DNA of 28,890 bases from Syntrophaceae bacterium UBA1163 (GTDB lineage: Bacteria; Desulfobacterota; BSN033; UBA1163), in contig DBZJ01000138.1 in the NCBI GenBank assembly GCA_002311635.1, positions 390-29,279 of the forward strand, read 5' to 3'. The notes beneath the pieces are model-generated. The model was not told the origin of the DNA. It saw only the letters and a list, made by a program, of their open reading frames with translations, and made no database searches. Both the position numbers and the translations under genes were made by a program. This document shows, one piece after another, positions 3,587 to 23,893 of this stretch (the first letter of the stretch is position 1; each line of letters starts with the position of its first letter).

Positions 3587-4272
3587 CAGAACAGACCCCG
3601 AAGAAAAAGCATACAGACGATCCAGGTATCGGCCACTGGCCTGAAATGGCTGGAGCCGGTTCCGTCAATTCTGGGCGTATTGATAGGAACAGATAACACA
3701 CTGAACCCCTTTTTGCAAGCTTTAATAAGGAGTTCCAATTCCGTCTCGAATCGGGATGTCGAGAGCTCGACCGCCCTTAACACCTCCGTCCGAATGAGTC
3801 GAAACCCGGATTGGCTGTCCAAAATGTCCGAGTGGCAGAGCCGTGAAACAGCCTTTACCCCCAAACGATTCCAAAAGCGGCGGAGGAAGGTCATTTTGTC
3901 AAACTCCGTTGCCCGGGAGGCAATGAGGATATCGGGTTTGACGCTTTGAAAAATCCTGAGAAGGGACGGGATTTCTGCGGGATCATGTTGACCGTCTGCA
4001 TCCAGAGTGATCACCACCCGATAGTCTCTTTGGAGGATATATTGGAATCCTGTCCGAAGGGCAGCCCCCTTTCCAAGGTTAAGGGGGTGCACCAGGAGTT
4101 GGACTCTATTTTCCAAAGCCAACCGCTTCGTCTCATCCGAAGATCCGTCATCGACGACAACGATATCGCTTTTGAGAGGTTCGATTTTTTTTAGAACCGA
4201 ACCAAGAGTGTCCTGAGCATTATAAGCAGGGATGAGGATACAGATTTTATCCGACCGTTGCATACAATCCAT
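3583..4272 (-). CDS. Family 2 glycosyltransferase (dolichyl-phosphate mannosyltransferase-like)
   Basis: This 229-residue GT-A fold enzyme begins ILIPAYNAQDTLGSVL and has the nucleotide-binding VVDDGSSDET, NLGKGAALRTG, and the metal-binding DADGQHDP (Asp91/Asp93). SQSGFRLI and ETELELLIKACKKG are typical of DPM1-like enzymes, which usually transfer a sugar to a polyprenyl phosphate at the cytoplasmic face of the membrane. A short hydrophobic end, WIVCMLFLRGLFW, may touch the membrane, but the long C-terminal membrane domain of some relatives is absent. It is the first gene of a four-gene minus-strand operon. Two ATGs are possible, 4272 and 4263, and neither has a strong ribosome binding site. 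Acceptor and sugar donor are unknown. Confidence 0.85.
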   Translation of the reverse strand: MDCMQRSDKICILIPAYNAQDTLGSVLKKIEPLKSDIVVVDDGSSDETKRLALENRVQLLVHPLNLGKGAALRTGFQYILQRDYRVVITLDADGQHDPAEIPSLLRIFQSVKPDILIASRATEFDKMTFLRRFWNRLGVKAVSRLCHSDILDSQSGFRLIRTEVLRAVELSTSRFETELELLIKACKKGFSVLSVPINTPRIDGTGSSHFRPVADTWIVCMLFLRGLFW

Positions 4273-4301
4273 TGCTTACGATTTAAGATAACTGTGATAT
4301 C

Positions 4302-4510
4302 TTGACCCACAAAGCACCAAATTCCAAGTGCTAAGCTTCAAATAAATCTCCCCGCCTGCCGGCAGGCAGGAATAACCAAGAGTTCGAATTCAAAACCCCT
4401 CACCCTCCCCTCTCCCCGCCGGGGAGAGGGATAGGGTGAGGGGCGTCATTGGGTTTTGCTGATTGGAATTTATTCGTAATTTGGGATTTCGAAATTAGAA
4501 TTTTGACTCC
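4302..4510. repeat. Composite intergenic repeat element with three palindromes
   Basis: The gap between the glycosyltransferase and the ATP-grasp gene is filled by repeats. The left end contains AGCACCAAATTCCAAG with AAATAAAT nearby, and the right end contains GATTGGAATTTATTCG and AATTTGGGATTTCG, a loose inverted copy of the left. Inside are a perfect 14-base palindrome GCCTGCCGGCAGGC at 4354-4367 and a large hairpin at 4396-4443 whose outer arms are CCCCTCACCCT and AGGGTGAGGGG. The same word vocabulary recurs around 8843-9125. No ORF in this gap resembles a protein. Confidence 0.7.
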
Positions 4511-4568
4511 CAAGCTCTTTAGATCTGTATCTCCCTTTGGCGTTTCAAGAGTTGATATGTCAGGTATT

Positions 4569-5726
4569 TCATCGTCTCTCCAAAAATCGTTTCATTTCAG
4601 CATCGTACAGGAAGGTGAAAAAGGTTGCAACCGATCCCAACAACGGAAGGGGGTCATCTTTTGAAAACACATCATAGCAAGTATTGGGATCAAAGAAGTT
4701 GAAGAAGGAAGGATCAAGGCCAAAACGTTGCGGATGGTTCAAAAAATGAAGGATGTCCCCCAGGAGAAGCCAGCGAAAACGTTTCCCCACGGCGTAGTGA
4801 AGAACGGGGTCGAAATGTTCCTTCCTGGCCATCTTCAAAATGAGAAAGGGAAAATCAACTCCAGATACAATGGCCAGCTGTAATGAGCCCCAAAAGCGGG
4901 GGTTCACCTCCATCAATTTCGGAATCCCATCTCTTGGATCGACTTTGAATTCGACCATGCCCACGCCAACCCAATTTAACGACTTAAGGAGGGAGAGGCC
5001 CAACTCCATGATCTGAGGATGTTCTATCCCTTCCGCCAACGTGCTGGGACCTCCTTGAATCGGATACATCCTCAACTTCTTATGAACGAAGGCAGCCTTG
5101 ACGTTCGAAGCCTCATCAAACAGGGCGGACAGCCCAAAGGTCCCTCCTCCGTCGGGAATCCATTCCTGAATCAACGGAAAAGGATACCGTCCATGGACGT
5201 TTTGATAAGACGAGCTGAGGTCCTCCCCCTTCTTTACATAGACTATGCCAAAGGAGCCGGAACTGATCCGCGGTTTAATCACTGCTGGAATTGGAATAGA
5301 GGAGGATGAAGAAGTAGGAAGGTCATAGAATGTTTTGGGCGTTGGGATCCCGTGGGCTTCTGCAAACCGTATAAGATTTCCCTTGTCCCGCACGAATTCA
5401 ATCTTTTTCAAATCGGGAATGAGGAGGTAAGCATATTTGGAGATTTCAGAATGATATTTCGCCAGCGAAAGCAGCGTTCCCTCTTCCATGGGGAAGAGGC
5501 AGTCGTACTGTTTTTTTTTAATCTCTCTCAGAATAAATTCAATAAATTGATTTGGGGATTGCTGTGGTGAAGGATAGACCAGACGCCTGGTGCAATACCT
5601 CGAAAAGAAGGAGGTATTCAGGCATGTCCGCTCTCCGACAGTGACAGGGACCCCTTTCCGACCAAGGGATCGAACCACAGCCAATGATTTTCTAAAGTGC
5701 CCATCCGTGACCAGAACACGCGCCAT
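4569..5726 (-). CDS. ATP-grasp family ligase
   Basis: The 385-residue protein has a small Rossmann-like N-terminal domain (ARVLVTDGHFRKSLAVVRSL) followed by an ATP-grasp fold. Seen are IPAVIKPRISSGSFGI with the ATP-binding lysine, FPLIQEWIPDGGGTFG in the linker strand, and the metal-ligand stretch LMEVNPRFWGSLQLAIVSG. Such enzymes join a carboxylate to an amine or similar nucleophile through an acyl-phosphate. The open frame extends 18 codons further upstream, to 5780, but those codons lie in repeat DNA. The ATG at 5726 (MARVLVTDG) matches where the family begins. Repeat-filled gaps separate it from radC upstream and the glycosyltransferase downstream, so it is probably its own unit. The substrates cannot be told from sequence. 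Confidence 0.8.
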   Translation of the reverse strand: MARVLVTDGHFRKSLAVVRSLGRKGVPVTVGERTCLNTSFFSRYCTRRLVYPSPQQSPNQFIEFILREIKKKQYDCLFPMEEGTLLSLAKYHSEISKYAYLLIPDLKKIEFVRDKGNLIRFAEAHGIPTPKTFYDLPTSSSSSIPIPAVIKPRISSGSFGIVYVKKGEDLSSSYQNVHGRYPFPLIQEWIPDGGGTFGLSALFDEASNVKAAFVHKKLRMYPIQGGPSTLAEGIEHPQIMELGLSLLKSLNWVGVGMVEFKVDPRDGIPKLMEVNPRFWGSLQLAIVSGVDFPFLILKMARKEHFDPVLHYAVGKRFRWLLLGDILHFLNHPQRFGLDPSFFNFFDPNTCYDVFSKDDPLPLLGSVATFFTFLYDAEMKRFLERR

Positions 5727-5829
5727 GAACTTATATTGCGGATTTCGAAATGCGGATTGCGGATGAACATCTAATACCAAATCTGTCGTTTGAATTTAAA
5801 CTCCGCAATCGCCACTCCGCAATCCGAAA
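5727..5829. repeat. GCGGATT-word inverted repeat between radC and the ATP-grasp gene
   Basis: Short words built on GCGGATT and its complement dominate this gap. ATTGCGGATTTCG and ATGCGGATTGCGGATG lie on the left, near 5735-5765, and ACTCCGCAATCG and CTCCGCAATCCG lie on the right, near 5800-5827. The two sides form a loose inverted repeat around an AT-rich centre. An open frame runs through the left arm into the ATP-grasp gene, which would mislead automatic start calling. Confidence 0.65.
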
Positions 5830-6519
5830 TCAGATTAGTCCTTCGTCAGCCAGGCTTCGATAACTCTCGCCTGCCAAGATGATATGATCATAAACCTTGA
5901 TCCCAAGAAGCCGGCCCGCGTCCACCAACTGTTTGGTGATTCGAAGATCCTCTTCACTGGGGCTTGGATTTCCACTCGGGTGATTGTGGATCAGAATAAC
6001 CCCTGCGGCAGGTTCCAAGAGAGCTTCACGAAAGACATCCCTGGGATGGACGATGCTCGCCTCGAGTGTCCCTTCTGAAATCGTCACGTCTTTAATCAAA
6101 CGATTCGCTCTGTTGAGGAGAATGACTTTGAAAACTTCTTTCCTGAGGTCTCTCATCAACGGCAGATAGTGGCTCGCCACATCCGCAGATCGCTTGAAAG
6201 AGACTTTGGAGCCCTCTTTCTGGGATTGAAACCTTCTGACTAGCTCAAAGGCGGCAGAGAGCGTAGCGGCCTTGGCAGATCCAATCCCCTTGACCTTCAT
6301 CAATTCCGAAGGGGAACGGGAAAAAAGCTTCTGGAGTGATTGGTACCGGTCTAACAGCTCCCTCGCTAAATCGACGGCTGTCTTCTTCCTCGTCCCCTTT
6401 CCAAGTAAAATGCCCAAGAGCTCTGCTTCGGCGAGGGGTTGGGGACCATGTTGAAGAAGCCGTTCCCTGGGTCTCTCCTTTTCGGGCCATCGGGTAATTT
6501 TGTAAGAGGACTCGGCCAT
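5830..6519 (-). CDS. radC: RadC family JAB1/MPN-domain protein
   Basis: The 229-residue product has the normal RadC size and layout. The N-terminal helix-hairpin-helix-like region contains ERLLQHGPQPLAEAELLGIL and KVKGIGSAKAATL. The C-terminal JAMM metalloprotease-like domain has EGTLEASIVHPRDVF and the zinc-binding HNHPSGNPSPSEED, with DHII further on. RadC was first linked to DNA repair, but its actual biochemical role remains unsettled, so the name reflects family only. The gene starts six bases after tatC ends and is probably co-transcribed with tatB-tatC. Its 3' end runs into the GCGGATT-type repeat. Confidence 0.93.
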   Translation of the reverse strand: MAESSYKITRWPEKERPRERLLQHGPQPLAEAELLGILLGKGTRKKTAVDLARELLDRYQSLQKLFSRSPSELMKVKGIGSAKAATLSAAFELVRRFQSQKEGSKVSFKRSADVASHYLPLMRDLRKEVFKVILLNRANRLIKDVTISEGTLEASIVHPRDVFREALLEPAAGVILIHNHPSGNPSPSEEDLRITKQLVDAGRLLGIKVYDHIILAGESYRSLADEGLI

Positions 6520-8079: not shown

Positions 8080-8874
8080 ATGACTATCATTCACGTAAAT
8101 GTGCCTTATTCCATGCTGCTTTCTCGCATCGATTTTGCGATCAAGAACCAAGTCCATCCTGAAATTTATTTCAGTGCGGAAGATTTGGATGCCTGCCGTA
8201 AAAAAGATGCTCAACGCCTGTCACGAACCCTCCAAGAAAACCAATTGGAAACTACCCTCCATGGTCCGTTCATGGACTTAAGCCCTGGAGGAGTGGATCG
8301 AAGGGTGAAGGAGGTGACCCGTGACCGACTTTTGAAAACGATCGAATTGGCCCATTTCTTCAAACCTAAGATGATCGTCTTTCACCCAGGATACGAGAGA
8401 TGGAAATTCGATGGCGATGTCAAACTTTGGCTCGACAGCAGTCTCGAAACCTGGAAACCTTTGGTTAAGAGAGCAGAAGATATGGGGTTGACGCTTGCCA
8501 TTGAAAACGTTTTTGAAGAAACTCCCGAGTCCATCAAAAATCTTCTGGAGGAGATCGATTCCCCTCACTTTCGATTCTGTTTCGACACAGGCCACCACAA
8601 CGTCTTCAGCAAGGCCCCTCTTCCTATTTGGATGGAAGCCTTGGGAGGATTTTTGGGTGAGGTTCATCTCCACGATAATCACAAAGAGATGGACGAACAT
8701 CTTCCGATGGGGGAAGGAGGATTCGATTTCAACCAATTCTTTGCACTCCTTTCACAGTACAAACTGAATCCTCTTTACACCATCGAACCCCACGAAGAAG
8801 CTCACCTCTGGAGAGGATTGGAGGCGGCAAGAAAATACCTGAGCACCAAATCCCAAGCACCAAATTCCAAATAA
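8080..8874 (+). CDS. Sugar phosphate isomerase/epimerase-like TIM-barrel protein (AP endonuclease 2 fold)
   Basis: The 264-residue protein fits the xylose-isomerase-like TIM barrel superfamily (AP_endonuc_2), which includes sugar epimerases, endonuclease IV and related metal enzymes. Candidate metal or catalytic residues are His61 (LHGPF), His102 (FHPGY), Glu142 (AIENVFEE), Asp169 and His172 (CFDTGHHN), His196/His198 (EVHLHDN) and Glu236 (YTIEPHEE). This arrangement matches a divalent-metal site at the barrel mouth. GGAG lies nine bases upstream of the ATG. The gene stands alone on the plus strand between two minus-strand clusters. Its last ten or so codons (TKSQAPNSK) and its stop are supplied by the CACCAAAT-type repeat, so the C-terminal tail is probably not functional. 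The substrate is unknown. Confidence 0.8.
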   Translation: MTIIHVNVPYSMLLSRIDFAIKNQVHPEIYFSAEDLDACRKKDAQRLSRTLQENQLETTLHGPFMDLSPGGVDRRVKEVTRDRLLKTIELAHFFKPKMIVFHPGYERWKFDGDVKLWLDSSLETWKPLVKRAEDMGLTLAIENVFEETPESIKNLLEEIDSPHFRFCFDTGHHNVFSKAPLPIWMEALGGFLGEVHLHDNHKEMDEHLPMGEGGFDFNQFFALLSQYKLNPLYTIEPHEEAHLWRGLEAARKYLSTKSQAPNSK

Positions 8875-15197: not shown

Positions 15198-15328
15198 CCG
15201 TTTCTATCCAACAGGATCCCTCCACGGAATCTATCCTACTCAAAATTCAGCAGGCTCATCCTATGGGAAACGCCATCTCCGAGTGAATCCGTCTTAAATT
15301 CCGCATGTATTCCAAACCTAAAAATAGG

Positions 15329-15356
15329 TTGACACGTAACAAAATATGTATATAAT
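15329..15356 (+). promoter_or_regulatory. Near-consensus sigma70 promoter of the sensory cluster
   Basis: A perfect TTGACA at 15329-15334 and a perfect TATAAT at 15351-15356 are separated by 16 bases, one less than optimal. Transcription should begin near 15363 and read through the structured leader to the histidine kinase start at 15538. Confidence 0.8.
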
Positions 15357-15362
15357 CTCCTC

Positions 15363-15513
15363 CAAGAAGTCATATTAGAGTAGGGGGGCCATTAATCCTT
15401 TAACGGTGGGGAAAGGTAATGGTAAACCCTGACCGTGCAACGAAAATGGAGCTCTCATTGTTTCGCCCTGCCTGTGGCTGACAGGCGAGGTCAGAACTAT
15501 GAGGGCTTTTTTA
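15363..15513 (+). ncRNA. Structured leader RNA with three-way junction and intrinsic terminator (unassigned attenuator or small RNA)
   Basis: The leader contains a bulged hairpin (CCATTAATCCTTT at 15389-15401 with AAAGGTAATGG at 15412-15422). A closing stem follows (CTGACC at 15429-15434 with GGTCAG at 15489-15494) that brackets two more hairpins: CGAAAATG/CATTGTTTCG at 15441-15465 and GCCTGT/ACAGGC at 15470-15486. Together these form a three-way junction. AGCTCTCAT at 15450-15458 can instead pair with ATGAGGGCT at 15499-15507, just before a T-rich run (TTTTTTATTT), which would make a terminator. The two folds compete for 15450-15458. I do not recognise the consensus of any known riboswitch. 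It could be a riboswitch, another attenuator, or a separate small RNA of about 150 bases. Confidence 0.6.
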
Positions 15514-15537
15514 TTTGTTTAGTATGAGGGTGCCAGG

Positions 15538-17484
15538 ATGAAAGATCAATACAAAACAAAAAAACAACTCATTGAGAAATTGGAGGTTTTACGCAATCAG
15601 CTCGTTGGACTTAAAAAGGCAGAAACTAAACGCAAGCGTGCAGAGGAGGATTTGAAAGTAAGGGAAGATTCCCTTCAAAAAGTAATCGAACAAACACCCA
15701 ACGCAATCTGGATATCAGATGAGCACGGAACCGTAATAAGAATGAACCAAGCGCTTAGAGATCTTTTGGAAATAACCGACGGGGAAATCATAGGGAAATA
15801 TAATATATTAAGAGATGTCCAAGTTATAAAGCAAGGCTTTCTTCCTTTAGTAAAGAGCGTATTTGAAGAAGGCATGACCGTTAATTTTGTGATTGATTAT
15901 TACACTGAAAAGGAGAAGCAAGTTGAATTAGCACACAAAACACATAAAGTGCTTCAAATAGTTCTTTCTGCAATCAAAAATAAAGATGGCAAGTTAGTTA
16001 ATGCTATTTGTCAACATAGGGACATCACCGAGCGCAAGCACGCAGAGGAAGCGTTGCGATTAGCAAGTGCTTATAACCGGAGTTTGATTGAAGCCAGTCT
16101 TGATCCACTTGTGACGATCGGTTCGGATGGAAGGATCACAGACGTGAATGCTGCTACGGAGAAGGTTACCGGCCATTCCCGTGGAGAACTTATTGGCACT
16201 GACTTCATGGACTATTTTAGCGAACCTGAGAAGGCGAAAGCAGGATACCAGCAGGTGTTTCAAGATGGTTTCGTCCAGGATTATGCTCTTGAGATCCGCC
16301 GGAACGACGGACATCTGACACCGGTCCTGTACAATGCCTCGGTTTACAGAGACGAACAAGGGAAGGCCATCGGAGTATTTGCTGCGGCACGAGATATCAC
16401 CCAGCGCAAACGGGCGGAAGAAGCGATAGAAAGCTTGGCGAGATTCCCCTCTGAAAATCCCAGCCCCGTCTTGCGAGTTAAACGAGATGGCACTCTGCTC
16501 TACGCCAACGGGGCCAGTTATATGCTTCTTCACGACTGGCAACTGGAGATAGACAAACCGGCACCATTGGCTTTGCAGGAGGCGGCTTCTGAGACATTGA
16601 CACAGCAGACCAGAAAAATGATTGATACGGAGCATCGTCAACGGATCATCTCATTTTTTGTTGCCCCTATTGTGAATGCCGGCTATGCCAACTTCTATGG
16701 CCGGGATGTCACTGAGCGCAGGCAGGCGGAGGAGGAGATCCGCAACCTCAACGCCGAATTGGAAAAGCGCGTCCGTGATCGAACCGCGCAACTTGAAGCT
16801 GCCAACAAGGAACTTGAAGCCTTTTCCTACTCTGTCTCACACGACCTGCGTGCGCCGCTTCGGGCAATTGATGGGTTCTCACGCGTGATACTGGAAGATT
16901 ATACCGACAAACTCGATGACGAAGGTAAACGGTATCTGAACATCATCGAAAGTAATACCAAAAAGATGGGTCAACTTATTGATGATCTTCTCGCCTTCTC
17001 TCGTTTAGGGCGACAGGAGATAAGAGTTTCAGAAATGGACATGGGGAAATTGGCAAAGTCTGTTTCTGAGGAACTTAAACTTGCTGTTCCTGAGCGGAAG
17101 TTAAACATCACTATAAACACTCTCATTCCCGCTCAGGGAGACCAGGCAATGGTTCGCCAGGTCTTTGTCAATCTTTTGTCCAATGCTGTCAAATTTACAA
17201 GACCAAGGGACACTGCATTCATTGAAATAACCGGTTCAGGAGAGGGAAATGAAAATGTTTATTCTGTCAAAGACAATGGGGTGGGGTTTGATATGCAATA
17301 TGTAAATAAGTTGTTTGGCGTTTTCCAGCGACTTCATAGCTCTGAAGAATTTGAAGGAACAGGCGTCGGACTTGCCATTGTCCAACGTATTATCCACCGA
17401 CACGGTGGACGTGTATGGGCCGAAGGGAAGGTGAACGAGGGAGCTACCTTTTATTTCACACTTCCACGAGAGAGGAGGGAATAA
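15538..17484 (+). CDS. PAS-domain sensor histidine kinase (phytochrome-type kinase core)
   Basis: The 648-residue protein has no clear membrane segment, so it is probably cytoplasmic. After a coiled coil (1-45) come two PAS domains (about 45-165 and 175-295), each ending in a PAC-like DITERK or DITQRK. A third, degenerate PAS follows (about 300-395), then a coiled linker. The dimerisation domain has His435 in [19 protein letters not shown], as in Cph1-like kinases, and the ATPase domain has the N box [16 protein letters not shown] and GTGVGLAIV. It should autophosphorylate His435 and pass phosphate to the receiver encoded one base downstream. The GAGGG ribosome binding site lies just after the leader terminator. 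The signal is unknown; no chromophore-binding GAF domain is present. Confidence 0.92.
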
Positions 17485-17485
17485 G

Positions 17486-17929
17486 ATGACTATTACAAAT
17501 GAGATTGAAATTCTTTTGGTTGAGGACAATCCCAACGATGTTGAGCTAACCCTCAGGGCACTGAAGAAAAACAATCTAACCAATAGAGTGCAAGTGGTAA
17601 AGGATGGAGCAGAGGCCCTGGAATATATCTTTGCCAATGGGGCCTATGCTTATCGGAAAGTTGAACACCATCCTAGGGTGATCCTCCTTGATCTAAAGCT
17701 TCCCAAAGTAGATGGTTTAGAGGTTCTGCGCCGAATAAAGTCGGACGAGCGAACAAGGGTCATTCCAGTCGTTGTGTTGACCTCATCAAAGGAAGAGAGA
17801 GATCTCGTGGAAAGCTACAAACTTGGAGCGAACAGCTACATCACTAAGCCCTTAGATTTCGAGAGCTTTGTCAAATCGGTCGCAGAGCTAGGGCTCTATT
17901 GGTTGCTCCTGAATCAGCCGCCCCGATAA
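17486..17929 (+). CDS. Single-domain response regulator (CheY/Rcp1-like)
   Basis: The 147-residue protein is a lone receiver domain with the acidic pair Glu13/Asp14 in LLVEDNPND, phosphoacceptor Asp69 in [12 protein letters not shown], the switch Thr99 in VVVLTSS, and Lys121 in YITKPLDF. The [12 protein letters not shown] start and the long loop before the phosphoacceptor are typical of Rcp1-like regulators that partner phytochrome-type kinases. It starts one base after the kinase stop codon, so the pair is probably translationally coupled. There is no DNA-binding or enzymatic output domain, so it must act by protein contact or as a phosphate shuttle, perhaps to the hybrid kinase that follows. 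Confidence 0.93.
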
Positions 17930-17962: not shown

Positions 17963-20317
17963 ATGGACAAGAAGCTTCGCATCCTGATACTGGAAGACGT
18001 CCCCGTCGATGCCGAGTTGATGGAACGAGAATTACGCAAAGGAGGAATTAAATTCTCCTCGAAGCGAGTGGACACAAAGGAAACCTTCCTAAAGGAACTA
18101 AAAGAGTTTGAGCCGGATCTCATCCTCGGTGACTACAAACTTCCCTCCTTCGACGGTCTCTCGGCCTTGGGAATCGTTCAGGAGAATTGTCCCAACGTGC
18201 CCTTTATCTTCATCTCCGGGACCATCGGCGAGGAATTGGCCATAGAAACCCTCAAATCGGGCGCGACAGACTATGTTCTCAAAGACAGACTATCGCGTCT
18301 TGTACCTGCTGTAAGCCGCGCTTTGAGGGAAGTCGAAGAGCGAACTGAGCGCAAGCGGGCGGAAAAATCCCTGCAGGATTCAGAAAAGAGATACAGAGAG
18401 GTCGTGGAGAACGCGACAGAGATTATTTATACGGTCGATGAGAGCGGAAATTTCACTTATGCCAACCCGGCTGGGTTGAAGGCGACCGGCTATTCACTTG
18501 GGGAACTTCGGCAACTTAATTATGCGGATCTTGTGCTTCCCGAACACAAGGAAAGAGTCTCTCAGGTATATGTCAACCAGATCCGGGAAAAACTTCCAAA
18601 GACATATGTTGAGTTCCCTTTTTCGGGCAAGGGTGGAGAAGTCATATGGTTCGGCCAAAATTCGACACTCGTTATGGATCGCGACAAAATCGTTGGATTT
18701 CATATCATCGCCCGCGACATCACTGAGCGCAAGCAAGGCGAGAGTGCGTTACGTGAGAGTGAAGAAAGATACCGAACGCTTGTCGAAACCTCTCCCGATG
18801 CCATTACGCTTTTGGACCTAAATCTCAACATTGTTATGGCCAACCGGCCGGCTTTGGTCTTATACGGGTCTGAAAGCCTTGAAGAGGTAATCGGGCGCAG
18901 TGCACTGGACTTTATCGCTCCGGAGGATCGACTGCGTGCAATGGAGGAGGCACGAAGAATGTTGGGAACTGGAAGCATTGCAACCACCGAGTTTACCCTA
19001 TTGAGGAAAGGGGACGTCTCTTTCCCCGCCGAGCTGAGTGCCTCATTGATCCTGGATGGGGAAAAGAAGCCTCTCGCCATTATCTGTGTCACCAGAGATA
19101 TCAGTATCCGCAAGCGGAGTGAGGAAGAAAGGACAGCCCTTGAAGACCAGCTTCGCCAATCGCAGAAGATGGAGGCCATCGGCCAATTGGCAGGCGGTGT
19201 TGCCCACGATTTCAATAACCTATTAACCGTCATCAAAGGCTATTGCCAACTCTCGCTCGCCGAAATGAAAGAGAGCACCCCTATAAAGGATGTCCTTGAG
19301 GTGATTAACAAAGCCGCTGAGAAAGCGGCCGATCTCACCCGCCAACTCCTGGCCTTCAGTCGGCGCCAGATCATGGAGGTGAGAGTACTGGATCTAAACG
19401 CCCTTTTGCAAAATCTTGACAAGATGCTTCGCCGGATTATCGGCGAGGATATTGAGCTGGTGACGCTGTTAGGAAAAGATGTCGGAAGAGTCAAGGCAGA
19501 TCCCGGGCAGATTGAGCAGGTGGTCATGAATCTCGCAGTCAATGCCAAGGATGCGATGTCCAAAGGGGGGAAACTTATCATTGAGACAGCCAACGCGGAG
19601 TTAGACGAGGCGTATGCACACGCTCATGTGGCCGTGACGCCCGGTCGTTATGTGATGATCGCGGTAAGCGACACAGGGGTGGGGATGGGGCCGGAGGTCA
19701 GGGATCGGGTCTTCGAGCCCTTTTTTACGACAAAAGGCAAGGGCAGGGGGACAGGATTGGGTTTATCGACGGTCTATGGGATTGTGAAGCAAAGTAGCGG
19801 GAACATCTGGGTCTATAGTGAGCCTGGGAAAGGGACGACCTTCAAAATCTTCCTGCCTCGTGTCGATGAACCCGCCGAGAAACTCAGGGCGCAAGCGGTA
19901 AAGGAAGAGTTTTCTCTCGGAAGTGAGACAATTCTTGTCGTGGAGGCCGATAAAGAGGTCCGGAACTTAGCGGTACGGATTTTGAAAAGGCAGGGTTACA
20001 CTGTTTTGGACGGAAGCTACGGGGACGAGGCCCTTAATGTTTGCAGGAACCATCAGGGCCCAATCCATCTGCTACTGACAGATGTAGTTATGCCCGGGAT
20101 GAGCGGTCATGAGTTGGCAAAACGTTTGGAATCCTTCCACCCCGAAATGAAGGTGCTCTATATGTCTGGCTATACCGACGACGCGATTGTCATGCACGGT
20201 GTTTTGGTGCGAGGGGTCAATTACATCCAGAAGCCCTTTACCGTGGATGCCCTGGCAAAAAAAGTAAGGGAGGTGCTCGAACAGTCACGGCAGAATTCGG
20301 AATCCACCTTGCACTAA
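17963..20317 (+). CDS. Hybrid histidine kinase: REC-PAS-PAS-HisKA-HATPase-REC
   Basis: The 784-residue protein opens with a receiver (1-125; Glu11/Asp12, Asp57 in [11 protein letters not shown]). Two PAS domains follow (about 137-260 and 262-385), then a dimerisation domain with His415 in [17 protein letters not shown], an ATPase domain ([32 protein letters not shown]), and a C-terminal receiver (about 655-775) with Asp707 in [12 protein letters not shown] and IQKPF. The GVAHDFNN box and ending receiver are common in Desulfobacterota hybrid kinases. In the final receiver the usual acidic pair reads Glu661-Ala662, so one metal ligand is missing. It lies 33 bases after the single receiver, with an AAGGGG ribosome binding site. 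It probably receives phosphate through the first receiver and joins the same relay. Confidence 0.92.
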
Positions 20318-21607: not shown

Positions 21608-22891
21608 TTAAGCCTCATTAAAAAAATCCTTTAGCCTTTTGATGGCACAAAACTCTCCGCACATCGTGCAGACGTCTTGTTCCCCGGATTTGCCTTCCTC
21701 ATGATAGCGCTTTGCTTTCTCCGGGTCAAGTGAAAGTTCTATCTGCTTCTCCCAGTCAAAAGCCAATCGAGCCTTTGCCATCGCAATATCCCTTTCAAGG
21801 GCTATCTTATTTCCCCGTGCAATATCAGCAGCATGACCCGCAATTCGGGCAGCAATTACTCCTTCCCGGACATCTTCAACGGAGGGCAACTTGAGATGCT
21901 CCGAAGGCGTCACATAACATAAGAAATCTGCTCCTGCTTTGCCCGCTACAGCACCGCCAATGGCGCAGCTGATGTGGTCATATCCCGGAGAAACATCGGT
22001 CACCAATGGTCCGAGTACGTAAAAAGGAGCTCCCCTGCACAACCTCTTTTCCAAAAGAACATTGGCTTCGATCTGATCGAGCGGGACATGGCCGGGTCCT
22101 TCGATCATGACCTGAACTCCCTCCGCCCATGCCCTTTCCGTCAATTCTCCGAGGAGAATCATCTCCTCCACTTGAGGCCGGTCTGTGGCATCTGCCAGGC
22201 AGCCTGGCCTCAACCCGTCTCCCAGGCTCAACGTCACATCGTGCTTTTTTGCGATGTCCAAGAGTCGATCAAAATGTTCATAGAGCGGATTCTCTCTGCG
22301 ATTGTAAATCATCCATTCAATGAGAAAAGAGCCACCCCGGCTGACCACTCCCAAGACCCGATGCGCTTTCCGCAACCTCTCCATAGCACTCCGGGTTACA
22401 CCGCAATGGACCGTTATAAAGTCGACGCCTTCCTCTGCCTGACGCTCAATGACTTCGAAGAGATCTTCAACCCGCATTTTGGCAAGAGCCTTCCTCTTCT
22501 TAACCGCTTCGATAGCCGCTTCGTAAATAGGAACGGTCCCCACAGGGATAGGAGAATGACGAATGATCTCCTTGCGGATGACGTCGATATCTCCACCTGT
22601 GCTCAGATCCATCACTGTATCGGTCCCGGCTTGAATCGAAACCTCAAGTTTTTCCAGCTCCTCCTCTAAATCGACGTGATCAGAAGAAGTCCCGAGGTTC
22701 GTATTCACCTTGATCCGGAGCCCTTCTCCAATCCCTGTGGGCCTCACCCCGCGATGGCTTGGATTGGCCGGGATAACCACTCGACCAGAAACAATATTTT
22801 CCCGGAGCCGTCCCACAGAGACCCCCTCTTCTCTGGCGACCCTCTTCATTTCCTGCGTGACAACACCCTTTTGGGCTTCTATTTTTTGCAT
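21608..22891 (-). CDS. thiC: Phosphomethylpyrimidine synthase ThiC
   Basis: ThiC is a cytoplasmic radical SAM enzyme that rearranges aminoimidazole ribotide into HMP phosphate, the pyrimidine half of thiamine. The 427-residue protein is the short form lacking the N-terminal extension of the E. coli enzyme. Seen are IKVNTNLGTSSDH, TVMDLSTGGDIDVIR, VDFITVHCGV, ESPGHVPLDQI-like EGPGHVPLDQIEAN, DVSPGYDHISCAIGG and the C-terminal cluster motif CTMCGEFC (Cys408, Cys411, Cys415). That motif has CX2CX3C spacing, one residue shorter than the CX2CX4C of long ThiC proteins. The gene starts 13 bases inside thiD and shares its TPP riboswitch control. Confidence 0.97.
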   Translation of the reverse strand: MQKIEAQKGVVTQEMKRVAREEGVSVGRLRENIVSGRVVIPANPSHRGVRPTGIGEGLRIKVNTNLGTSSDHVDLEEELEKLEVSIQAGTDTVMDLSTGGDIDVIRKEIIRHSPIPVGTVPIYEAAIEAVKKRKALAKMRVEDLFEVIERQAEEGVDFITVHCGVTRSAMERLRKAHRVLGVVSRGGSFLIEWMIYNRRENPLYEHFDRLLDIAKKHDVTLSLGDGLRPGCLADATDRPQVEEMILLGELTERAWAEGVQVMIEGPGHVPLDQIEANVLLEKRLCRGAPFYVLGPLVTDVSPGYDHISCAIGGAVAGKAGADFLCYVTPSEHLKLPSVEDVREGVIAARIAGHAADIARGNKIALERDIAMAKARLAFDWEKQIELSLDPEKAKRYHEEGKSGEQDVCTMCGEFCAIKRLKDFFNEA

Positions 22892-23703
22892 CGTGGTATC
22901 ACCTTCCTCGCTAAAGTTTGCAGTAGGCAGTCAGCAAAAGGATTGACAGGACCCGCTCCTTTTCCAAGGGTGAGGCCGGATTGGATCGCCATGGTGATAA
23001 AAGTCTTCGCCTTTGTCACCGCTTCATCGACCCTGTCTCCTTTCGCCACAAGTGTTGCAAGCGCTGAGGCGAAGGTGCAACCTGTGCCGTGAGTATTTTT
23101 CGACTCAATCCTTGGTCCTTTCGCCTCGGTAAATTTTTTCCCGTCATAAAGCAGGTCAACTGGCATCCCTTTCAGGTGACCTCCCTTCACCACCACATGT
23201 TTTGCCCCCATTCTGTGAATGAGACGGGCGGCGCCCTTCATTCCTTCCAGAGAGTCTACCCTTAATCCGGTGAGGGCCGATGCCTCCATGAGGTTCGGCG
23301 TAATCAGCCACGCGAGGGGAATCAATTTTTGGATGAGGGCATCTTGAGCATCCCTTCGAAGAAGAAGGGTCCCGCCCTTTGACACCATCACCGGATCCAC
23401 CACCACCTTCTTCACCTTATACTGCTTAATTTTCTTCGACACGACATCAATGATTTCCCCATTGACCAGCATCCCCGTCTTGATCGCATCCGCGCCGATG
23501 TCCGAGAGAACGGAATCGATTTGGGCCCCGACAAATCGGGCAGGAATCTCATGGATGCCTTGAATTCCCAACGTGTTTTGTGCTGTGACGGCCGTAATCA
23601 CACTCATTCCGTAACCGCCGAGCAGGCTGATGGTTTTCAGATCTGCCTGAATTCCTGCTCCGCCTCCGGAATCCGATCCGGCAATCGTCAGTATTCGTTT
23701 CAT
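22879..23703 (-). CDS. thiD: HMP / HMP-phosphate kinase ThiD
   Basis: ThiD phosphorylates hydroxymethylpyrimidine and its monophosphate to HMP diphosphate, the form used by thiamine phosphate synthase. The 274-residue ribokinase-fold protein begins ILTIAGSDSGGGAGIQADLK. It has AITAQNT-like TAVTAQNTLGIQGIHE, DAIKTGMLVN, VVDPVMVSKGG, LITPNLMEASALTG and the anion-hole NTHGTGCTFASALA near the C terminus, with the catalytic-base aspartate position replaced by the family's usual cysteine (GTGCTFAS). AAGGGGAG precedes the ATG. It is first in the thiD-thiC transcript, about 35 bases after the riboswitch terminator. Confidence 0.96.
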   Translation of the reverse strand: MKRILTIAGSDSGGGAGIQADLKTISLLGGYGMSVITAVTAQNTLGIQGIHEIPARFVGAQIDSVLSDIGADAIKTGMLVNGEIIDVVSKKIKQYKVKKVVVDPVMVSKGGTLLLRRDAQDALIQKLIPLAWLITPNLMEASALTGLRVDSLEGMKGAARLIHRMGAKHVVVKGGHLKGMPVDLLYDGKKFTEAKGPRIESKNTHGTGCTFASALATLVAKGDRVDEAVTKAKTFITMAIQSGLTLGKGAGPVNPFADCLLQTLARKVIPRCKK

Positions 23704-23769: not shown

Positions 23770-23782
23770 CGCTTTTCTTTTC

Positions 23783-23877
23783 CGCTTCCCTTCGCTGGAA
23801 TTACCCAAACAGGTTCGGAGGGTCTCCCTATCCCACTGCCGCAGGACAAGGACTCTCAGCCCAATGAGCTCCCCTAG
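23783..23877 (-). promoter_or_regulatory. TPP riboswitch aptamer (THI element)
   Basis: On the minus strand the conserved blocks occur in the right order: GGGGAGC, then GGGCTGAGA, a variable arm, GACCCTCCGAACCTG, GGGTAAT and CCAGCGAAGGGA. These form the pyrimidine- and pyrophosphate-sensing arms of the classic aptamer. Its position upstream of thiD-thiC and the adjacent terminator confirm the function. Confidence 0.97.
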
Positions 23878-23893
23878 CTATCTCTTTAAAACC

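Follow-up and report, generated by a model that had tools for sequence, protein, structure and literature searches.

The SAM-II riboswitch is an H-type pseudoknot. In the SAM-II leaders that precede Sinorhizobium metA and metZ, a small fold is reported to sequester the Shine-Dalgarno (SD) sequence upon ligand binding (metA), a Rho-independent terminator lies shortly 3′, terminated leaders accumulate as small RNAs beside the read-through mRNA, and a first start codon (AUG1) is in frame with that of the main gene (AUG2) (PMC9373788). For the motifs uORFC-8-2 (cysS) and uORFC-6-1 (hflX), translation of a short upstream open reading frame (ORF) is proposed to affect downstream transcription, and the odc1 motif joins a ribosome-binding site sequestered in a conserved stem to a short upstream ORF (PMC8632094). 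In the cbrX-cbrA pair of Pseudomonas putida, the ORF just ahead of a sensor kinase gene is reported to influence that gene's expression through translation (PMC6591292), and ANTAR antitermination needs an ANTAR domain and two stems with six-base loops carrying A at position 1 and G at position 4 (PMC3369931). Titles and abstract openings, a scope that does not prove absence, yielded no terminator leader of the layout described here ahead of PAS kinases.

The window (the whole stretch of 28,890 nucleotides that was analyzed) contains the following features at the locus under study.

15329..15356, plus strand: perfect sigma-70 promoter, TTGACA-16-TATAAT (−35 box 15329-15334, −10 box 15351-15356)
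15363..15512, plus strand: putative leader RNA of ~150 nt, its start placed by promoter spacing and its end set at the T-run
15397..15416, plus strand: S1 hairpin, CCUUU 15397-15401 with AAAGG 15412-15416, 5/5 pairs, invariant in 2/2 sequences
15403..15436, plus strand: S2 helix, ACGGU 15403-15407 with ACCGU 15432-15436 and GGG 15409-15411 with CCU 15428-15430, 8/8 pairs kept
15408..15481, plus strand: SD GGGG (15408-15411) and short ORF (15419-15481, MVNPDRATKMELSLFRPACG) of 20 codons, which enters the left arm of the terminator
15450..15512, plus strand: predicted intrinsic terminator, stem AGCTCTCAT 15450-15458 with ATGAGGGCT 15499-15507, T-run 15507-15512 (fold, hairpin scan and alifold)
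15519..15537, plus strand: ribosome-site region of the kinase, repeating the right-arm octamer TATGAGGG (copies at 15498-15505 and 15523-15530)
15538..17484, plus strand: PAS histidine kinase, first gene downstream (domain scan)
17486..17929, plus strand: response regulator with a receiver domain only (domain scan)
17963..20317, plus strand: PAS hybrid histidine kinase with receiver domains (domain scan)

Set beside the described systems, this locus shares with the metA and metZ leaders a small fold over an SD sequence and a terminator shortly 3′; unlike them, it gives no SAM-II match and precedes kinase genes, and the AUG1 in frame with AUG2 likewise sets those leaders apart. With the cysS and hflX motifs it has in common a short upstream ORF proposed to act on transcription of the gene behind it, but those motifs carry cysteine codons or conserve an Arg-Leu-Arg peptide, whereas the leader has neither a codon run nor a conserved peptide, and here the ribosome site of the ORF lies under a conserved fold. 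The ribosome site in a conserved stem and the short upstream ORF also recall odc1, of which 272 examples are known and whose 11-residue peptide is conserved, against two examples and no conserved peptide for this leader. An ORF just 5′ of a sensor kinase gene is shared with cbrX-cbrA, for which the available text mentions no leader terminator. As in antitermination by ANTAR response regulators, two-component proteins accompany a terminator leader, but the S1 loop has ten bases in place of six, and ANTAR control was rejected since none of the three downstream proteins contains the ANTAR domain (PF03861), receiver, PAS and kinase domains being the only ones found.

A preliminary description of this DNA had recognized, by eye, no known riboswitch consensus and had proposed a covariance search against Rfam. 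That search has now been run and agrees: at gathering thresholds no family matches the leader, and a permissive scan of 15280-15600 returned eight matches up to E 10, all under their gathering scores and none of them SAM-II. A known riboswitch was accordingly rejected. The sole match above gathering score in the whole window is an ordinary TPP riboswitch at 23770-23885 on the minus strand, upstream of the ORF at 22879-23703 and of ThiC (21608-22891).

The promoter at 15329-15356 matches the consensus at 12/12 positions with a 16-nt spacer, as had been described. The 4.08 Mb genome contains 27 perfect promoters with 15-18 nt spacing and a single copy of a reversed control pattern, so sites with the perfect pattern are probably real promoters in this genome. 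The one ahead of the leader is presumably strong. Two of the perfect promoters (L091 and L092, G000:C176) are identical, spacer included, and lie 3.4 kb apart on one contig, a possible duplication.

The RNA downstream of this promoter is predicted to fold stably, with −61.8 kcal/mol for 15363-15537 against a dinucleotide-shuffle mean of −49.1 (z −3.1; 0/200 shuffles as good). The terminator stem before a T-rich run that had been noted earlier is present at 15450-15512, where a stable G+C-rich stem is directly followed by the T-run, an arrangement that predicts intrinsic termination. When the 350 nt behind every one of the 27 perfect promoters were scanned for hairpins, it scored highest (−32.0 kcal/mol, next −22.3), and in the two-sequence alignment introduced below it has an alifold z of −8.8 (500 column shuffles); a simple terminator scanner with a loop limit of 8 nt reported none at the leader.

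Searching the leader by BLAST against 99 genomes (its own included) returned a single homologue, in a genome of the same genus (G002, hereafter the relative; E 2.9e-13). When compared by blastn with 16 kb around the homologue, positions 15322-15515 match 5686-5871 of locus L039 (70.4% over 196 columns, E 2.5e-16). The conserved block runs from just 5′ of the −35 box to just 3′ of the T-run, and the relative's promoter (L039 5694-5721) is also a 12/12 match; the same sequence around the element occurs in PEUO01000148.1, a Deltaproteobacteria metagenome assembly. Among the other BLAST matches, a short stretch in G096 (L003) was judged unrelated by eye, and one in the relative (L004) resembles the terminator alone. 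The latter lies at 1510-1570, away from the element, and forms a hairpin of the terminator type that resembles the leader's, with CTGCCTACCGCAGGCAG at its core and an A/T run at each end; perhaps this is a dispersed hairpin type that the leader has recruited.

Searches with model R1 detected the element in 2/5 genomes of the genus and 2/17 of the family (E≤1), in 2/23 of the class (E≤0.1) and, with stricter filters, in 2/395 of the phylum (E≤0.01). A weak match in a third family genome (L042, E 0.13) is chance-like and shows by eye no such promoter or core. Allowing up to two mismatches, the core pattern occurs at 25 places in 22/148 genomes, compared with 14 occurrences of a reversed control, and 23 of these 25 places lie within stop-free frames of at least 178 codons, with no TATAAT in the preceding 110 nt. 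Its exact form was found at three loci among 84,980 genomes: one is the relative itself (L043), a second lies inside a 426-codon frame (L044), and neither this second locus nor the third (L045) has a TATAAT in the 100 nt before it. Viral contigs yielded neither the exact core pattern (0 occurrences) nor relatives of the first kinase. The element is thus probably a genuine control element of narrow distribution, and, with only 23 genomes in the class sample, part of this narrowness stems from limited data. What has been kept in two species of this thinly sampled class, with different next genes, is a compact RNA unit running from promoter to terminator, with conserved helices and belonging to no known family.

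The whole leader, aligned between the two species, yields a z of −6.5 with 0/500 column shuffles as good, and the part before the terminator a z of −3.1 to −3.4 (equaled by 0.2% and 0.6% of 500 column shuffles), the alifold z of −3.4 and the 0.6% being those of 15385-15447. These column shuffles preserve identity and gap classes. Two short helices form the core. S1 covers the stretch between the SD sequence and the start codon of the short ORF and is extended in this genome by CCAUUA/UAAUGG; being invariant, it offers no covariation evidence. S2, which covers the SD sequence itself, keeps 8/8 pairs in 2/2 sequences, one pair through a two-sided change and two through one-sided changes. Sliding the S2 partners by 1 to 3 columns reduces pairing from 100% to 35-65%, although the +3 slide likewise contains one two-sided change. 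A per-pair shuffle control, in which 261/500 shuffles reach the observed S1/S2 values, is non-discriminating because the alignment holds two sequences, and with two sequences found the covariation evidence is thin. Together, S1 and S2 may form an H-type pseudoknot.

Other folds proposed for this RNA fared differently. The bulged hairpin of the preliminary description was recovered at about 15381-15431. The closed three-way junction of that description, built on CTGACC (15429-15434) and GGTCAG (15489-15494), both present in the sequence, was to be tested by covariation in the stems, but three of the six pairs are lost in the relative. Enforcing the junction gives −45.3 kcal/mol against an optimum of −54.8 (9.5 worse) and, for a transcript ending short of the right terminator arm, −39.1 against −43.0 (3.9 worse). 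The junction and terminator stems do cross and, when nested, exclude each other, as had been claimed, but on its energy cost and the loss of pairs we reject the junction as the switch.

The short ORF begins at ATG 15419, with its GGGG seven bases upstream. In the relative, GAGG and ATG occupy the same alignment columns and the ORF extends to 62 codons, so that the open frame crosses the left terminator arm in both species. Codons 2-10 show no third-position bias (differences by codon position 3/4/3), and selection on the peptide therefore lacks support; a conserved leader peptide was rejected on this ground. Nor does the leader fit an amino-acid leader-peptide attenuator, as MVNPDRATKMELSLFRPACG has no amino-acid run and the peptide is poorly conserved and lacks a coding signature. 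Only the act of translating this ORF could then matter. The 62-codon ORF of the relative ends 4 nt before the start codon of the following MNT gene (L002 1527-1720), which could reflect translational coupling or chance.

Downstream, the kinase SD (GAGG, 15526-15529) starts 13 nt past the T-run and its ATG (15538) lies 25 nt past the end of the T-run, with no promoter of at least 9/12 matches in between, in a scan that is blind to weaker or other-type promoters. Kinase expression consequently probably needs read-through. This geometry, along with the fact that one relative retains the complete unit, bears out the description of a terminator leader ahead of PAS kinases. The broader suggestion of a control region for a sensory cluster holds in part: PAS kinases do follow here, but the next genes downstream in the relative are an MNT/HepT pair, with no kinase, and sensor- and regulator-like frames begin, by eye, only about 1.2 kb past the terminator, which makes the tie to a sensory cluster loose. 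The farther frames comprise a probable sensor, whose first 108 residues match no Pfam family, followed by regulator-like and hybrid-kinase-like frames (both by eye). Hybrid kinases of the two element loci show similarity short of clear orthology, the best match in the relative lying on another contig. A set of branched-chain amino acid transporter genes lies upstream of the leader on the opposite strand; upstream of the relative's element are a BKACE gene and frames that by eye resemble this transporter class and are in part similar by tblastx.

Our tentative preference, with a probability of roughly 0.4, is that the kinase operon has a cis-acting leader working by read-through and opened by translation of the leader ORF. 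Transcription would start at the consensus promoter, many transcripts would stop near 15512 as an RNA of about 150 nt, and the kinases would be made from read-through. S1 and S2, conserved as helices and conceivably joined in a pseudoknot, would cover the ribosome site of the short ORF. Once a metabolite, a protein or temperature opened this site, ribosomes crossing 15450-15481 would occupy the left arm of the terminator, which could then not form, and transcription would proceed into the kinases. In favor of this reading are the unit shared with the relative, the alignment's folding beyond column shuffles, the retained S1 and S2, the matching SD and ATG columns with a frame open through the left arm in both species, and the short distance from T-run to kinase. 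Against it count the sample of two sequences, the missing coding signature, the failure of a 5′-end antiterminator to beat shuffles and the MNT/HepT pair of the relative, as well as genome G014, which encodes a kinase with an 88%-identical C-terminal part in a different arrangement and in which model R1 finds no element. If this proposal is true, RNA reads a second signal that sets how much of a sensor kinase is made.

The main rival is a stand-alone gene for a trans-acting small RNA, with the kinases downstream by accident or living on leaky read-through, and the different next gene of the relative gives it that standing; we consider it quite possible, though less probable than the cis-acting leader. 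The element has its own promoter and terminator, as expected of a trans-acting small RNA, the similarity spans almost exactly the interval from −35 box to T-run, and its terminator-like hairpin is the strongest of the 27 perfect-promoter loci. Against a stand-alone gene stand the closeness of the kinase SD to the T-run with no intervening 9/12 promoter and the result of the same scan in the relative, where none lies between the terminator and the MNT start.

An undescribed riboswitch or protein-bound attenuator whose S1/S2 core, once bound, would set termination directly, independently of leader translation, appears unlikely. The compact conserved core just 5′ of the terminator and the lack of an Rfam match speak for it, but no alternative pairing with the terminator arm beats shuffles: an antiterminator pairing from the 5′ end to the left arm was rejected, since out of 1000 shuffles 54% for the window and 10% for the relative reach its duplex energy. 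The restriction to two of the 23 class genomes weighs against it as well, and because the next genes differ in those two, no ligand can be guessed.

An elaboration of the preferred reading would add a second lock. The octamer TATGAGGG has just two copies in the window, counting both strands, and as isolated strands the left arm and the kinase ribosome site are predicted to form a duplex of −13.7 kcal/mol, a value reached by 0.95% of 2000 shuffles, compared with −13.9 for the arm's true partner; 18 other start regions, hand-picked from the 67 ORFs of the window and one of them with an alternative start, give −2.9 to −10.3 kcal/mol with the left arm. With the octamer pairing imposed, the complete read-through transcript folds to −51.1 kcal/mol, against −62.6 when free, a penalty of 11.5. 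When 15489-15507 is barred from pairing, the kinase SD and ATG are covered with mean probabilities of 0.61 and 0.79, in a register other than the octamer pairing (the SD by 15464-15469, the ATG by 15456-15458); with only 15495-15507 barred, coverage is just 0.11 and 0.01. The left arm is hence predicted to mask the kinase ribosome site strongly as an isolated duplex and weakly in the whole RNA, and the second lock was dropped from the best explanation because of that weak whole-RNA folding. The left-arm region would in this double lock both end transcription and mask the kinase site, ribosomes on the short ORF would open both, and the start of that ORF would be gated by a small undescribed pseudoknot sensor. 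We regard the combination as improbable; if true, it would give sensor-kinase synthesis its own RNA-level signal. Improbable, too, is a passive leader whose strong promoter and partial terminator merely lower kinase expression, a reading in keeping with the fact that no analysis shows switching but at odds with conservation of the interval between promoter and terminator.

Two further observations concern a kinase and a CbiR-like protein. The kinase, at 4074-5897 of locus L066 and adjoining a gene that by eye resembles a binding protein, shares 88% identity with the window kinase over the latter's residues 405-645 but differs in its sensor half, possibly through a recent domain exchange. Elsewhere in the window, at 8080-8874, lies a protein resembling the cobamide-remodelling CbiR, scoring under the curated cut-off (71.4 of 105 bits).
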